Shown piece by piece: positions 15,214 to 26,227 of a stretch of 64,000 nt of DNA. The stretch's first letter is position 1, and every line of letters starts with the position of its first letter. The notes under the pieces were generated by a model, which was not told the origin of the DNA, made no database searches, and saw nothing but the letters and a program-made list of their open reading frames with translations. The stretch is from NCBI GenBank assembly GCA_019694555.1, contig JAIBBS010000020.1:1-64000 (forward strand), in the 5' to 3' direction. This DNA comes from Nannocystaceae bacterium (lineage in GTDB: Bacteria > Myxococcota_A > Polyangia > Nannocystales > Nannocystaceae). A program made the position numbers and the translations under genes.

Positions 15214-17726
<2,513 letters not shown>

Positions 17727-17730
<4 letters not shown>

Positions 17731-18362
17731 GGGCGCGCAGTCCCGCCGCGCGGTCGATCGGACGGCGACAGACCCCGCTCGATCGCGAGCCGCAGATCGC
17801 GGCGACCGAGCCACAGCTCGATCACGCCGCACGCGATCGCGAGCACGCCGATCACGAGCAGCACCTCGACCACACTGCCACGCCACAGCTGCACCAGCGC
17901 CGCGTCGCTGGCGTCGGCCGCCCGCGCGGCACCGGCGATGCGCCCGCGCAGCGCGACCACGCCCAGCGCGAGCAGGCCCGCGGTCACGCCGAAGCCCAGC
18001 GTCACGCGGTGGGGCCGTGGCGCCAGCGCCAAGCCCGACGCCATCGCGGGGCGGATCGGACCCAGGCGAGAGGCGATCGCGGCCGCGAGCGCGGCGATCG
18101 CCACCGCCGCAGCCGCGAGCGCGAGCAGCAGCACGGCCGCCTGCGACACGGTCGTGACCAGCAGTGTGCGCGCGGCCACGGCGTCCCCGCGCAGCGCCGC
18201 GCCGACCTGGTCGGCGATGCCCGGCGCGACGTCGAACCCGACGCGGCACACCGCGGCCCATGCCACACACGACAGCCCCACGGTCCACCACGCCGACGAC
18301 GGACGCACGCCGGCCTGCCACGCCTTGCGCAGCTGCGCGACCGTCGAGCTCGGCGCCGCCAT
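17727..18362 (-). CDS. FlhB/SctU-like membrane protein without cytoplasmic domain
   Basis: This 211-residue protein has four hydrophobic segments after the N-terminal STVAQLRKAWQAGVRPSS, and ends in ELWLGRRDLRLAIERGLSPS. That layout (basic N-terminal helix, four helices, then a basic RRDLR helix) is that of FlhB/SctU, the switch protein of type III export. The autocleaving NPTH domain is absent. Other export-gate genes lie about 6 kb away on the same strand. Similarity is judged by eye, so an unrelated four-helix protein is possible. It is translationally coupled to priA. Confidence 0.45.
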
Positions 18363-18372
18363 CTGCCCTCGG

Positions 18373-18401
18373 AGATACCAGCGGCGACGCGGCTTCGCCA
18401 A
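18373..18401 (-). promoter_or_regulatory. Promoter of the sctU-like/priA/fmt operon
   Basis: TTGGCG, 17 nt, then GTATCT on the minus strand, 10 nt before the ATG. This leaves a leader of only a few bases. Confidence 0.45.
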
Positions 18402-18529
18402 GGTTTGCGCGCGTGGGTGCGTCGCGCAGGCCCCGAGCCGGCGATCGCCCCGCGGCCGCGCCGACGCGGCGCTGCGCCCCGGCGCGATCGGTGCCGCGCG
18501 ATCGACCGCGCGCGGGTATGCTGCGCCCG

Positions 18530-20845
<2,316 letters not shown>

Positions 20846-21937
20846 TCAGAAGCCGACGCCGAGCTTGAACGCGACGCGGTCGTAGCTCGCGACCTTCTGC
20901 TGCCACACGAAGGTCGGGCGGATCCAACCCAGCGACGCGTGGATCCACATCCACGGCGCGACCGCGAACTGGGCCCCGAGATCGAGACCCAGGGTGTACA
21001 GCAGCGCGAGGTCGTTGCGACCGAACAGCTCCACGCGGGCCCCGCCCACGCCGCCTTGGAACTCGAGCATCGGCGTGACCACGCCGGGATACTGCATGCC
21101 CAGGCCCAAGCGCTCCATCAGCAACAGGTCGGCACGATCGCCGCGCGCGGCGGCGCGGCCACCTTCGATGCCGAACTCGGTCAGCAGGTTCACGCGCACG
21201 TAGCGACGCAGCGGCGTGACCTCGAGCGACGCGAGGTGCCAGTCCTGCGCGCGACCGAGGCGATCGCGGATGCCGAAGTAGCGGTAGCCGACCACGAACG
21301 CGGCCGAGCGCTTGGGCGGATGCGGCGGCCGGCGATACTCGGGCCGCGCGTCGTCGACCGTCGGCGTCGCGGTGCGCACGATCGCCTTGGTCGGCGTGCG
21401 TGGGTTGGTGCGCGGCGGCTGCGGTGGCGCGGCCTGATCCTCGCGCCGCCAGGTCTCGACCTCCTCGCGCGAGACCAGACGCAGCGGCGCGGCCTCGGCA
21501 CCCGCACCGGCGCCGGCCTTGGGCAGACGCCGCGGCGACGGCTTCTGGAAGCCCGCGGGGCCGTCGGCCTCGATCTCGGGCCCCGGCGGCGGCGGCTCGG
21601 TCGGTGTCGCCGTCGTGGGTGCGCGCGGCGAGGCCCCGGCGGCCGGCGGCGGCGGTGCGCGCTTGCTCGGCGCAGGCGGTGGCGCGGTGGGCGCGCCGGG
21701 CGGCGGCGGAGCAGGCTCGCGCGGAGCAGGCTCGCTCGGTGCCTCGCTCGATGGGGCCTCGCTCGGTGCGGGCTCGCTCGGTGCGGGCTCGCTCGGTGCG
21801 GGCTCGCTCGGTGCGGGCTCGCTCGGTGGCGGCGGGCTCGGTGCCTCGCTCGGCGGCGGGGCCGGCATCGCACGGCCCGGCAGCGGCGGCAGCTTCGGCG
21901 GCCCCAGCACCAACGCGAGCACCAGCGCTGCGATCAC
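20846..21937 (-). CDS. Pro-rich envelope protein with C-terminal beta-barrel-like domain
   Basis: This 363-residue protein has an N-terminal hydrophobic signal (VIAALVLALVLG), then about 150 residues of Pro, Ala, Ser and Glu that include tandem PAPSE pentapeptides. The C-terminal region from about 200 has alternating aromatic strands (AAFVVGYRYFGI, MLEFQGGVGGARV, ending VAFKLGVGF). A terminal aromatic residue is typical of outer-membrane barrels. The Pro-rich part could span the periplasm. GTG overlaps the stop of the upstream lipoprotein, and its own stop abuts that of the RCC1 gene. Confidence 0.65.
   Translation of the reverse strand: MIAALVLALVLGPPKLPPLPGRAMPAPPPSEAPSPPPPSEPAPSEPAPSEPAPSEPAPSEAPSSEAPSEPAPREPAPPPPGAPTAPPPAPSKRAPPPPAAGASPRAPTTATPTEPPPPGPEIEADGPAGFQKPSPRRLPKAGAGAGAEAAPLRLVSREEVETWRREDQAAPPQPPRTNPRTPTKAIVRTATPTVDDARPEYRRPPHPPKRSAAFVVGYRYFGIRDRLGRAQDWHLASLEVTPLRRYVRVNLLTEFGIEGGRAAARGDRADLLLMERLGLGMQYPGVVTPMLEFQGGVGGARVELFGRNDLALLYTLGLDLGAQFAVAPWMWIHASLGWIRPTFVWQQKVASYDRVAFKLGVGF
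21761..21820 (-). repeat. 15-bp coding tandem repeat (PAPSE)
   Basis: Four perfect copies of GCTCGGTGCGGGCTC (plus-strand reading) are followed by a degenerate fifth. They are in frame and encode a Pro-Ala-Pro-Ser-Glu run. Copy number could change by slippage without breaking the frame. Confidence 0.9.
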
Positions 21938-22680
21938 GGCGTGCCTCGCAGCTCGATGGTCGCGGCCATCTCGTCGAGGTCGCCGTCGCTGGGTGCGAAC
22001 AGCGAGCCGAACGCGGCGCGGATGGTTCGCTCGCCGCCGTCGTAGTAGAGCCCGCGCACGTACAGCCCCGGCGGGATCACGACGTCGTAGCGCCACGGCG
22101 TGCCCGCGGCGTCGGTCTTGCGCAGCTCCTGCACGAGCTCGGCCGCCTGCGTCGTCACCAGCAGATCGAGCTCCGCGAGCGCGACGTCCTTGGGCGAGCG
22201 CAGATCGACGTCGAGCAGGCCCGGCAGGTCCGCCGTCGTCGCGTCGGTGCCCAGCCCATCGGTGCCCAGCCCATCGGTGCCCAGCCCATCGGTGCCCAAT
22301 CCGTCGGTCGCCAGTCCCAGGCCGGTGCTGCCGAACAGGCCCTGCGCGGTCGAGGGCAGCAGATCGGCGATCGTGTGATCGCGCGTCGCGGGACCCAGCG
22401 CGAACGCGTGCGTCGGCGGCGAGCCCGACACCTGCAGGCCGAAGATCTCCGCGGGAATCTCGAGCCTGAGCGTGAGCCCGTCGTCCTGCGTCACGTTCCA
22501 CGGCGGCGTGACGTACGTGACGCCGTACGCGTCGTCCTGGCTGCGCCAGGTGGTCACGCCCTCGACGTAGTTCGCGGCATCGCAACCCGTCGCGGCCGCG
22601 AGCACGATCGCCATCGCGCGCGCCCGACGGCGTCGTCGCGAGGTCGCTCCACGGCTGGGATCCAGCGGCACGGCTCCCAC
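21934..22680 (-). CDS. Lipoprotein with GLGTD repeats
   Basis: This 248-residue protein starts at a GTG that supplies an Arg-rich region before the hydrophobic core and lipobox AAATGC; an internal ATG would leave no positive charge. The mature part has an immunoglobulin-like look (LTLRLEIPAEIFGLQV, YDVVIPPGLYVRGLYYDG). A central run of GLGTD pentapeptides interrupts it. It is coupled to the Pro-rich protein by GTGA, so the two probably act together in the envelope. The 201 bp upstream holds nothing recognisable. Confidence 0.65.
   Translation of the reverse strand: MGAVPLDPSRGATSRRRRRARAMAIVLAAATGCDAANYVEGVTTWRSQDDAYGVTYVTPPWNVTQDDGLTLRLEIPAEIFGLQVSGSPPTHAFALGPATRDHTIADLLPSTAQGLFGSTGLGLATDGLGTDGLGTDGLGTDGLGTDATTADLPGLLDVDLRSPKDVALAELDLLVTTQAAELVQELRKTDAAGTPWRYDVVIPPGLYVRGLYYDGGERTIRAAFGSLFAPSDGDLDEMAATIELRGTP
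22246..22320 (-). repeat. 15-bp coding tandem repeat (GLGTD)
   Basis: Three perfect copies of GGTGCCCAGCCCATC (plus-strand reading) are followed by two diverged ones. They encode a Gly-Leu-Gly-Thr-Asp series in frame. Confidence 0.9.
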
Positions 22681-22881: not shown

Positions 22882-24273
22882 TCACTCGATGCGGGCGATC
22901 TCGCTGAGATACCCCGCGGCGTCGCGGTCGAGCGACACCACCGAGATCGAGTCGTCGAGCGTGTTGGCGACGTAGGCGCGCTGCGCGACGGGATCGATCG
23001 CGATCTCGTCGGCGCCCTCGCCCAGCTCGAGCTGCGCGAGCACGCGCCAGCTCGACAGCCCCACGATCGCGAGCTCGCCCTGCGCGTAGCAGCTGACCAG
23101 CGCCAGCGCTTCGCCGTCGCTGGGGCGGTGGATCGCGAGCAGGTTCGGTTGCTCGCACAAAGGCAGCATTCCGACGATGGCGTCGCGCGGGTCGCCGTCG
23201 TCCGCGACGGTGGTGTCGACGCGCAGCAGCGAGGCCGGCGTGGTCTGCACCACCAGCAGCGAGGTGCCGCCGGCGGGATCCTCGAACGCGAGATCGCCGA
23301 GGTACGGCTGCTGGTGCACGCCCTCGGGATTGACGGTCGCGAGCGACGACTCGTCGCCGGGCACCAGCACGTCCAGCCCCGGCGCGACCGCGAAGCGGCG
23401 CACCGACGGGAAGAAGCGCTGGCTGGTGTAGAGCACCGAGCGCGTGCACTCGCGGCTGCCCGCGGGCGGGTTGGCGAGGTCGCACGGCCGCGCGTCGACG
23501 CCGAAGCCGCCGGCGTACTCGGTCTCGTCGAAGGGGTCGCTGCGGTAGAACTCGCCGACCACGTCCGCGAGCTCGGGTCCGAGCTCGCCGTCGAGTGCGA
23601 TCAACGAGATCGCGCCGCCCAGCAGGTGCGGCACGTAGGCGAAGCGGTAGCCCTGATCGTCCACGACCACCCGCGAGGGATCGTCGGGCAGCTCGACGCC
23701 GGGGCGATCGAAGGCCTGGTCGAGCATGTGCACGTCGTCGCACTCGCCGTCTTGGGCCTGGCCGCAGTCGAGCGTGGGACCGCCACCGGACTCGATCACG
23801 TCCATCCACACCACCGCGGCCGGCAGACGCTGCACCGTCAGCAGCCGCAGCGGCCCGCCCTCGCCCCCGGGGCGATCGATCGCGAGGTTGCCGACCGCGC
23901 TGCCCAGCCCGACCGCGGCACCGGGCACGACCATCGCCTTGGCGTCGCAGCGCAGGCGGCCGTCCGCGGGCACGTCCACGCAAGCCTTGCCGCCGCCGTC
24001 CAGCGGCGCCAGATCGAGCGTCAGCACGCCGCCACGCTCCTGCGAGCGATCCCAGTTGCCGTTGGTGACGAACAGCAAGCGGCCCTCGGGCGAGAGCGCG
24101 ACGCCGGTGGGCTGGCGCAGATCGTCGAGCGTCGCCTCGGGCCGATCGCGACCGCAGGCCGCGATGCCCAGCAGCAACGTCCCCGCGATCGCGACGGCTC
24201 GCACGCGCCCCGAGGATGGCACGTTTCGCCCGCGCGGCGTCGCGCCCGGCGGCGCGTCGCGTCCGCGACTCAC
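22882..24273 (-). CDS. Propeller-like lipoprotein in the export-gate operon
   Basis: This 463-residue protein has a long signal peptide with core VAIAGTLLLGIAAC (lipobox GIAAC). The mature part has YVTN/YncE-like repeats (TGVALSPEGRLLFVTN, and EIAIDPVAQRAYVANTLDDSI near the end), so a seven-bladed beta-propeller on the outside of a membrane is likely. It has several Cys pairs. The GTG start overlaps the sctT stop as GTGA; two further GTGs downstream would also precede the signal. Being the last gene of a type III gate operon is unusual. Confidence 0.7.
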   Translation of the reverse strand: MSRGRDAPPGATPRGRNVPSSGRVRAVAIAGTLLLGIAACGRDRPEATLDDLRQPTGVALSPEGRLLFVTNGNWDRSQERGGVLTLDLAPLDGGGKACVDVPADGRLRCDAKAMVVPGAAVGLGSAVGNLAIDRPGGEGGPLRLLTVQRLPAAVVWMDVIESGGGPTLDCGQAQDGECDDVHMLDQAFDRPGVELPDDPSRVVVDDQGYRFAYVPHLLGGAISLIALDGELGPELADVVGEFYRSDPFDETEYAGGFGVDARPCDLANPPAGSRECTRSVLYTSQRFFPSVRRFAVAPGLDVLVPGDESSLATVNPEGVHQQPYLGDLAFEDPAGGTSLLVVQTTPASLLRVDTTVADDGDPRDAIVGMLPLCEQPNLLAIHRPSDGEALALVSCYAQGELAIVGLSSWRVLAQLELGEGADEIAIDPVAQRAYVANTLDDSISVVSLDRDAAGYLSEIARIE

Positions 24274-25016
24274 GGCCCCAGCAGCACGCGCGTGCGCGCA
24301 GCCTCGAGCGCGGCCTCGGGCACCGCCGGCAGCGCCGACGCGCCCCAGCGTGCGGCATCGATCGCCCACGACGCCCCGAGCGCGGCGAGCACCGCGGCGA
24401 GCCGCAGCATCGGCGTCACCGCGGACGCGAGCACCGGCGCCACACCGGGGCCGCGCGAGGCCACCGCCGCGAGCAGCTCGACCGCGACCGCGGCGAGCAA
24501 CGCCGGGGTCGCGAGCGCGAGCGCGAGCGTGGTCGCCGACGTGATCGCGGCGATCGACCACGGCCCGAGCTGCGCGACGGCGGGGATCCATGCCTGCGGA
24601 TCGCCCAGCGGAAACAGCGAGCCCAGCGACACGTTGCCCTGCAGCGCCGCGTGGTGCAGCCCCAACGCCAACGCCAGCGCGCTCACCAGCGCGAGCACCA
24701 GCGCGACGAAGCTGGCCGGCGGCGTCCGCAGCACCAGCGCGGAGGTCGTGGCCGCGCCGATCACCGCGTGGGTCGGCCACGCGAGCACGAGCCCGATCAC
24801 GGTGCCCAGCACGAGCTCGGCGATCAGCGCCGGCACGAAGCCCCAGGCGAGCACGGGCGCGCCGCCGCCGGGCAGCGACAACGCGAGCACGCCGCCCAGC
24901 AGCGCGGCCACGGCCCAGCTGGTGCCCGGCATCGCCGCGCGCAGGCCCGGCTGCACGCGCACGATCGCGAAGCAGCGCGCGAACGCCAGCACCAGCGCGG
25001 CCACGACCGCGTTCAT
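24270..25016 (-). CDS. sctT: Type III export-gate protein SctT/FliR
   Basis: This 248-residue, all-helical membrane protein of FliR/SctT type forms, with SctR and SctS, the helical gate through which type III substrates pass. Hydrophobic helices fill the whole length. ARCFAIVRVQPGL near the start and the central FVPALIAELVLGTVIGLVLA match the family pattern of an early PxL motif and a conserved Glu-containing helix. ATG overlaps the sctS stop. Whether it belongs to a flagellum or an injectisome cannot be told from this gene. Confidence 0.8.
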   Translation of the reverse strand: MNAVVAALVLAFARCFAIVRVQPGLRAAMPGTSWAVAALLGGVLALSLPGGGAPVLAWGFVPALIAELVLGTVIGLVLAWPTHAVIGAATTSALVLRTPPASFVALVLALVSALALALGLHHAALQGNVSLGSLFPLGDPQAWIPAVAQLGPWSIAAITSATTLALALATPALLAAVAVELLAAVASRGPGVAPVLASAVTPMLRLAAVLAALGASWAIDAARWGASALPAVPEAALEAARTRVLLGP

Positions 25017-25282
25017 GGCCCGCGCCCGAGCGCGCCCAGCTGCTGCCACGCGGCCGCGGTGTGCTCGGTGAGCTGCGTGGCCCAGCCGGCGCCGAAGGCC
25101 GCGATCGCGGCGAAGACCGCGACCGCCCGCAGCAGCAGCCCCAGCGTCGGATCGGTCAGGCCCAGTGCGCGCGTGAGCACGGCGGTCGCGAGCACGCCCG
25201 CGACCGCGGCGGCCACCAGCGGCAGCGCGATGAGCAGCGCCACCGCGAAGCCGTCGTGGACCGTGGCCAGCGCCTCGTTCAC
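25013..25282 (-). CDS. sctS: Type III export-gate protein SctS/FliQ
   Basis: This 89-residue protein has the two-helix hairpin of FliQ/SctS: an ALLIALPLVAAAVAGVLATA helix with the conserved Pro, a linker ending TDPTLGLLLRAV (compare TQIQDPTLSF in relatives), and a second helix. SctS packs around the SctR5-SctT1 gate. It lies between sctR and sctT with GTGA and ATGA overlaps, the canonical R-S-T order. Confidence 0.82.
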   Translation of the reverse strand: MNEALATVHDGFAVALLIALPLVAAAVAGVLATAVLTRALGLTDPTLGLLLRAVAVFAAIAAFGAGWATQLTEHTAAAWQQLGALGRGP

Positions 25283-25908
25283 GCGTAGCCCTCGATGAGC
25301 CCGCCGACGATCACGGTCCAGCCGCCGACCGCGAGGAAGAGCAACAGCTTGAGCGGCACCGACACCAGCGCGACCGGCAGCTGCGTGAAGCCCAGCAGCG
25401 TGACCGCCTGGGCCACGAGCAGGTCGACCACGACCAGCGGCACCAGCACCACGACCGCCATCGTCAGCGCCTCGCGCAGCTCGGTGACCAGGAAGCCCGG
25501 CACCACCACCAGCGGATCGTCGAGCGTGCGCTGCTGCAGCGACGAGAAGAACTCGAGCTCGCCGGCATCGGCGTGGCGCTGCAGGAACGACAGCCACGGC
25601 GCTGCGGCATCGAACCATCCGCCGCCGGCCGCGACGCCCGCGAGCCCGCCTTGGGCCTCGACCTCGCCCCACACGGCGCCGGCGGTCGGCGCCATCACGA
25701 TCGCGGTCACGACCAGCGCCAGCGCCAGCATCACCGGCAACGGCAGCAGCGCCTCGGCGCCCAGGCCCACGCGCACCGCTCCCAGCAGCACCGACGACTT
25801 CGCGAACGCCGTCGCGACCACCAGCACGATCGGCACGATCGCGAGCCACGCGAGCGAGCCCGCGCCTGCGTCGAGCTCAGCCACCTTGGTCCCAGCCCCC
25901 GCGTCCAC
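25279..25908 (-). CDS. sctR: Type III export-gate protein SctR/FliP
   Basis: This protein of up to 209 residues is clearly FliP/SctR, the pentameric gate subunit. The C-terminal block has [42 protein letters not shown] and [11 protein letters not shown], all near family consensus. The N-terminal half has [13 protein letters not shown] in place of the usual TSFTRIIIVLSFLR. No cleavable signal is evident. The first GTG overlaps the FliO-like gene by 32 nt; a second GTG at 25884 would reduce this to 8 nt. Confidence 0.88.
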
Positions 25909-26227
25909 GGGTGCCGCCCGCGACGATCGGCGTGCCGCCGCGGACGCCCGTGGGCTCGCGCGGGCCGTCGTTCTTCACCGCGCGCAGCCGATCGCCCAGG
26001 TCGCACAGCAGCGTCGGCGCGGCGCCGGTGCCGGCACCGACGACCAGCCGCCGGTCCTCGATCACGACCACGTAGACCGCGTGCTGCGGCGAGAGCCGGA
26101 TGGTCCGCAGCACCTGCGGGTCGGCCTGACGGGCCCGCCGTCCCAGGAACGCCAGCACGCCCGCGAGCGCCGCGAGCACGAGACCGACTTCGACCAGGAC
26201 CAGGGCAGACGACGCCGCGAGCAGCAT
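25877..26227 (-). CDS. FliO-like protein, first gene of the export-gate operon
   Basis: This 116-residue protein has one N-terminal membrane helix (about 3-28) and then a small beta domain ([20 protein letters not shown]) that matches the FliO pattern, followed by a disordered Gly/Arg-rich tail. FliO is a chaperone for FliP assembly in flagellar systems and is usually missing from injectisomes. TACCGT lies 6 nt before the ATG with no ribosome-binding site, so it is probably leaderless. Confidence 0.6.

Follow-up and report, generated by a model that had tools for sequence, protein, structure and literature searches.

A conserved, switchless FlhB/SctU-like gene upstream of priA in Nannocystaceae, probably part of a reduced, non-flagellar export gate

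The window, which is the whole 64,000-nucleotide stretch of contig JAIBBS010000020.1 from a Nannocystaceae bacterium that was analyzed here, carries a short FlhB/SctU-like gene on its minus strand (Table 1). The reading frame opens with an ATG at position 18362 and closes with a TGA at 17729–17727. Its product contains four hydrophobic segments (residues 24–50, 64–103, 119–146, and 154–187) and ends in the basic sequence GRRDLRLAIERGLSPSDRPRGGTARP. Both ends of the protein are basic, and together with the four transmembrane segments this is the layout of the FlhB/SctU membrane domain; the initial annotation had described the four helices and a basic end. No NPTH/FlhBC domain, the autocleaving part of FlhB, is found in the window protein, whose reading frame closes at priA. 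Matches to PF01312 that seemed to continue past the stop codon were rejected; priA starts in another frame, and no FlhB domain is hidden there. Upstream of the truncated gene and on the opposite strand lies an RCC1-repeat protein with at least 11–14 repeats (18164–20845, plus strand).

Table 1. Genes of the truncated flhB locus and of the gate operon in the window
Feature	Coordinates	Strand	Remarks
Truncated FlhB/SctU-like gene	17727..18362	-	211 aa; four TM helices; without FlhBC/NPTH domain
priA	15214..17730	-	GTG start overlaps the truncated-flhB TGA (GTGA); PriA profile match directly downstream in relatives
FliR/SctT-like gene	24270..25016	-	PF01311 19.6 bits (cut-off 27.8), E 7e-4; overlaps fliQ stop (ATGA)
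FliQ/SctS-like gene	25013..25282	-	PF01313 25.3 bits (cut-off 25); overlaps fliP stop
Divergent FliP/SctR-like gene	25279..25908	-	PF00813 125 bits
FliO-like gene, first in the gate operon	25877..26227	-	PF04347 21.1 bits, just under the cut-off of 22

The FliO-, FliP-, FliQ-, and FliR-like genes form an operon of four overlapping genes on the same strand (26227–24270), 5.9 kb upstream of the truncated flhB; the distance had been estimated at about 6 kb. The operon adjoins the ribosomal rpsM-rpsK-rpsD-rpoA-rplQ genes, and it is conserved in 28 of the 29 family genomes. In a midpoint-rooted FliP tree, from which Cystobacterineae sequences were left out, the divergent FliP proteins form a clade (100/100) that joins the FliP of two class relatives, G035 and G051 (94/91), outside flagellar FliP (100/99). 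These two are the other genomes with a truncated FlhB, so that both truncated-FlhB lineages come together in the FliP tree. The gene following fliR (about 22882–24230) encodes a putative lipoprotein with weak β-propeller similarity, and Nannocystis and Paraliomyxa have similar genes at the corresponding position. Two neighboring minus-strand open reading frames, 21934–22680 and 20846–22045, encode short amino acid repeats (GTDGL... and EPAPS...). The divergent fliP adjoins lon in G035 and G051 (L233 and L234), and in Nannocystis lon is situated between fliR and the truncated flhB.

The sequence of the window protein alone leaves its identity non-significant. Its sole Pfam match is to FlhB, in register from the N terminus, but with an E value of 0.49, below the cut-off. 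A search against NCBIfam returned only an irrelevant WzzB-like match. Orthologues were then collected from relatives by protein search, and 16 of them were aligned for a profile. PF01312 matches 13 of these 16 Nannocystaceae orthologues, the best with an E value of 6e-7, and when it was run over the family genomes, many species gave a weak match to the syntenic gene. A search of 177,635 Protein Data Bank sequences with the orthologue profile (E ≤ 10) yielded two entries, both FlhB (E 8.5e-5 and 0.01). Profile-profile comparison with canonical FlhB gave an E value of 3.5e-7 and covered the last helix and the stretch "MTKQEVKDE" with which the cytosolic domain begins. Sensitive profile searches thus do recover the similarity to FlhB/SctU that had been proposed, and the orthologues settle the homology. 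The comparison with PF01312 that had been suggested is significant for the orthologues, although not for the window protein by itself.

Gene order decides the question in the same direction. Orthologues lie directly before priA wherever the downstream sequence was read, and class-level relatives were found by searching the phylum with the orthologue profile. Two of these, G393 and G032, have at the same site, directly before priA, an FlhB that is full length and retains NPTH. A third, G222, whose closed chromosome measures 10,327,335 bases, has a full-length FlhB with GAGV in place of NPTH. G035 and G051 carry a truncated gene before priA that is slightly longer than the Nannocystaceae form. 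The occurrence of full-length FlhB at this position decides the homology of the truncated gene, which from sequence comparison is strongly supported as a reduced descendant of FlhB/SctU, its function being inferred. The type III genes of G222 are scattered over this 10.3-Mb chromosome (contig C1; L228), with flhB at 1.96 Mb, SctJ at 5.48, fliP at 7.98, SctQ at 9.10, and the ATPase at 9.79.

The GTGA overlap between the truncated flhB stop codon and the priA start codon is an arrangement suited to translational coupling, as the initial annotation had noted. The flhB-priA pair was in place while FlhB was still full length, so that most simply it predates the truncation. The coupling is probably a legacy of that gene order and calls for no functional explanation. 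It is very improbable, and was already disfavored, that the gene encodes a membrane protein of four helices that has no relation to the gate and is tied to PriA or replication. The constant association with priA and the negative structure search described below would agree with such a protein, but FlhB is the only match of the orthologue profile in the Protein Data Bank, and full-length FlhB stands at the same site in relatives.

The truncation goes further than had been claimed. The switch domain is indeed absent, but the gating loop is reduced too. Compared with the long conserved loop of FlhB, the loop between helices 2 and 3 is shortened in the truncated proteins, and a Q-T/V-G motif that is present in 13 of 15 full-length proteins occurs in none of the 22 truncated ones. 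The protein is therefore not simply FlhB minus the switch. AlphaFold run on the 22 truncated sequences predicted a fairly confident helical bundle (pLDDT 81). When this model was compared with the Protein Data Bank by Foldseek, no match was better than E 3, and FlhB was not returned. As a control, the canonical FlhB membrane domain predicted from 15 sequences gave as its top match 6s3l_K, the FlhB of the FliPQR-FlhB structure (E 1.5e-3, probability 1.00). Either the isolated truncated chain collapses in the prediction, or the fold may have changed. Relative to FlhB/SctU as represented by PF01312 and the Vibrio FliPQR-FlhB gate (6s3l), the truncated protein retains the N-terminal motif, the four transmembrane segments, the start of the cytosolic helix, and the genomic association with FliPQR and FlhA. 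It differs in having no FlhBC/NPTH, in its shorter loop without the motif, and in a fold that Foldseek does not recover. The failed fold search, the missing domain, and the missing loop motif together lead us to call it a reduced derivative rather than an ordinary FlhB.

Truncated orthologues are present in 26 of the 29 family genomes, as judged by direct matches, profile matches, and position before priA. One of these calls (G005) is very weak, at 9.9 bits, and rests mainly on position. In the other three genomes (G008, G014, and G019), where the gene was not found, the contigs ended before priA or were fragmentary. NPTH is absent from every orthologue read, the weak call included, and no separate FlhB cytosolic domain is credible by score in the genomes that lack a flagellar set. 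When the divergent FliP was used as a query, matches at 44–69% identity came from Nannocystis exedens, N. pusilla, N. poenicansa, N. bainbridge, Paraliomyxa miuraensis, Enhygromyxa salina, and Plesiocystis pacifica. Beyond Nannocystaceae the identity falls to 36% or less, which places the extent of the system at this family. Among five Nannocystis species the truncated flhB shows no length change, and its pairwise dN/dS is 0.29–0.62; the corresponding values for FliP are 0.14–0.35. The truncated flhB is under purifying selection, and it is constrained less than FliP. In the genus that comprises G005 and G015 (L221, 8549–9049; L224, 343–867), erosion of the gene before priA has gone further, and its N-terminal FlhB motif is gone.

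The genome that contains the window also carries a canonical flagellar set on another contig (C8), with FlhB (E 9.7e-109), FliP (E 6.8e-75), and FlhA (E 1.7e-251), so that the full-length SctU whose presence elsewhere was in question does exist. Given this canonical fliPQR-flhB-flhA cluster, the truncated protein might be imagined as an accessory subunit of the flagellar export gate, but the truncated gene is equally present where there is no flagellar set at all, for example in closed Nannocystis genomes, and such a role is almost certainly not the explanation.

In the Nannocystaceae that lack flagella, among them Nannocystis with closed or nearly closed genomes, no YscJ_FliF match above the cut-off was found for the MS-ring/SctJ. 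Profile search of the flagella-less members likewise gave no FliM/N match above the cut-off for the C-ring, and for the type III ATPase only weak matches to the T3SS ATPase C-terminal domain, of the ATP-synthase type. A weak second "T3SS ATPase" in the genome of the window was rejected as ATP synthase β, the atpD identity being confirmed in this genome only. Lone matches below the cut-off, to FliF in G010 and to FliM/N in G006, are regarded as noise. Class relatives with a full or intermediate FlhB keep at least two of the three components (ATPase, MS-ring, and C-ring), and usually all of them. Across lineages these states plausibly form a series, not proven to be a single path, from an intact NPTH, through loss of NPTH and then loss of the domain with the ATPase and rings kept, to loss of all of them.

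Nearly all family genomes contain a second, divergent FlhA at a separate locus. Its cytosolic part is shortened, and we take the stretch that is largely absent to belong to the first and second subdomains, the chaperone docking region. The ten proton-path and charged-channel residues of FlhA were taken as assigned in a 2026 preprint (PMC13308203), and positions were assigned by motif spacing; the membrane part keeps nine of the ten in all six sequences read. The exception is the otherwise invariant proton-path residue N137, which is a glutamine in all six (L108–L112 and L115). The divergent FlhA lies directly beside a gene that, from its sequence, is tryptophan 2,3-dioxygenase-like, both in the genome of the window (G000, contig C372; L108, 8082–10031) and in Nannocystis (L110, 7513–9870).

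FliO-P-Q-R, the truncated FlhB, and the divergent FlhA co-occur, and we infer that the products of these scattered genes assemble into one system. With a probability of roughly 0.65, we read the truncated FlhB as a derivative that has been conserved without its switch and that belongs to a second, non-flagellar gate, itself reduced and probably driven by protons. The minimal gate partner without a substrate-switch function put forward in the initial annotation would fit this anatomy. By sequence comparison the truncated protein keeps the domain of four helices with which FlhB docks on the FliPQR/SctRST channel. FliPQR would form the inner-membrane channel, the truncated FlhB would complete and brace the helical assembly, and the FlhA ring would couple proton flow to gate opening. 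Such a gate would not switch between early and late cargo, and in species without flagella it would also lack a dedicated ATPase and a ring scaffold. It would serve as a conduit across the inner membrane that works in a single mode, either for a fixed cargo or in a new job. Since the proton path of FlhA is kept and the cargo-handling domains are reduced, a proton-coupled inner-membrane conduit is the simplest functional reading. We propose only tentatively that the Nannocystaceae gate consists of nothing but FliPQR, the membrane domain of FlhB, and a trimmed FlhA, driven by protons without an ATPase, rings, a full cargo-docking domain, or a substrate switch, and that it functions in a new job.

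A switchless FlhB can work in principle. Salmonella flhB mutants without the cleaved domain still form a gate and secrete late substrates, the gate being locked in the late-substrate mode in a sensitized background (PMC13344023). That gate resembles the one proposed here in that its FlhB has no switch domain, but it belongs to a laboratory mutant that keeps the N-terminal part of FlhBC, the full loop, the ATPase, and the rings.

The same genes could instead be the decaying remains of a type III system ancestral to Myxococcota, in which the truncated FlhB persists mainly by co-transcription with priA and erodes slowly. The progressive loss of parts across lineages, the dN/dS of the truncated flhB above that of FliP, and the loss of the N-terminal motif in the genus of G005 and G015 all point this way. 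Against it stand the undisrupted open frames in 26 of 29 genomes, the strong conservation of FliP, the second FlhA, and the FlhA proton-path residues, and the retention of the gate genes at separate loci unlinked to priA, and we consider slow decay a real but rather doubtful account. Another possibility is that the core complex of FliP, FliQ, FliR, FlhA, and FlhB has been freed from the flagellum to serve nanotubes or inward transport, as proposed for other bacteria, a role that the literature reports for the core proteins (PMC9380563, PMC7064499). All five are present, FlhB and FlhA in reduced form, and the set, without other secretion parts, broadly resembles that core. Those systems are not known, however, to lack FlhBC and part of the FlhA cytosolic domain, and such a role appears unlikely.

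Of the known systems, the Cystobacterineae Myxo non-flagellar T3SS (Abby and Rocha 2012, PMC3459982) is also an export apparatus of Myxococcota outside the flagellar clade, and like the Nannocystaceae it gives no sign of a needle system sought here. It retains an ATPase and SctJ, the small protein of the inner ring, neither of which the flagella-less Nannocystaceae show by profile search, a comparison with that system as published. Lysobacter enzymogenes OH11, a non-flagellated predatory soil bacterium, retains export gate genes without flagella (PMC7277350) and provides a precedent for the reuse of such genes. In contrast to the Nannocystaceae it keeps FliI and can export flagellin, and an FlhB truncation is not described in PMC7277350. 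In the open-access literature that we searched, neither a truncated FlhB in myxobacteria nor the flhB-priA pair is reported, which is weak evidence of novelty.

FlhB has been described as essential to all type III secretion and always with the cytosolic switch domain (PMC7064499). If the reduced gate exists as proposed, it would be a natural experiment in the smallest possible gate, family-wide in myxobacteria, and would provide a naturally occurring example for the debate on whether the core complex has a role of its own. A gate without the switch domain, accompanied by apparent intermediates, would make it testable which parts serve proton-coupled opening and which only cargo order.

The truncated gene has also been rearranged in one genome. 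In the Enhygromyxa-like genome G023 (L226, 5062–5685 and 13445–13792), the 3' part of truncated flhB is duplicated together with the priA start, flanking about 8 kb of other sequence.
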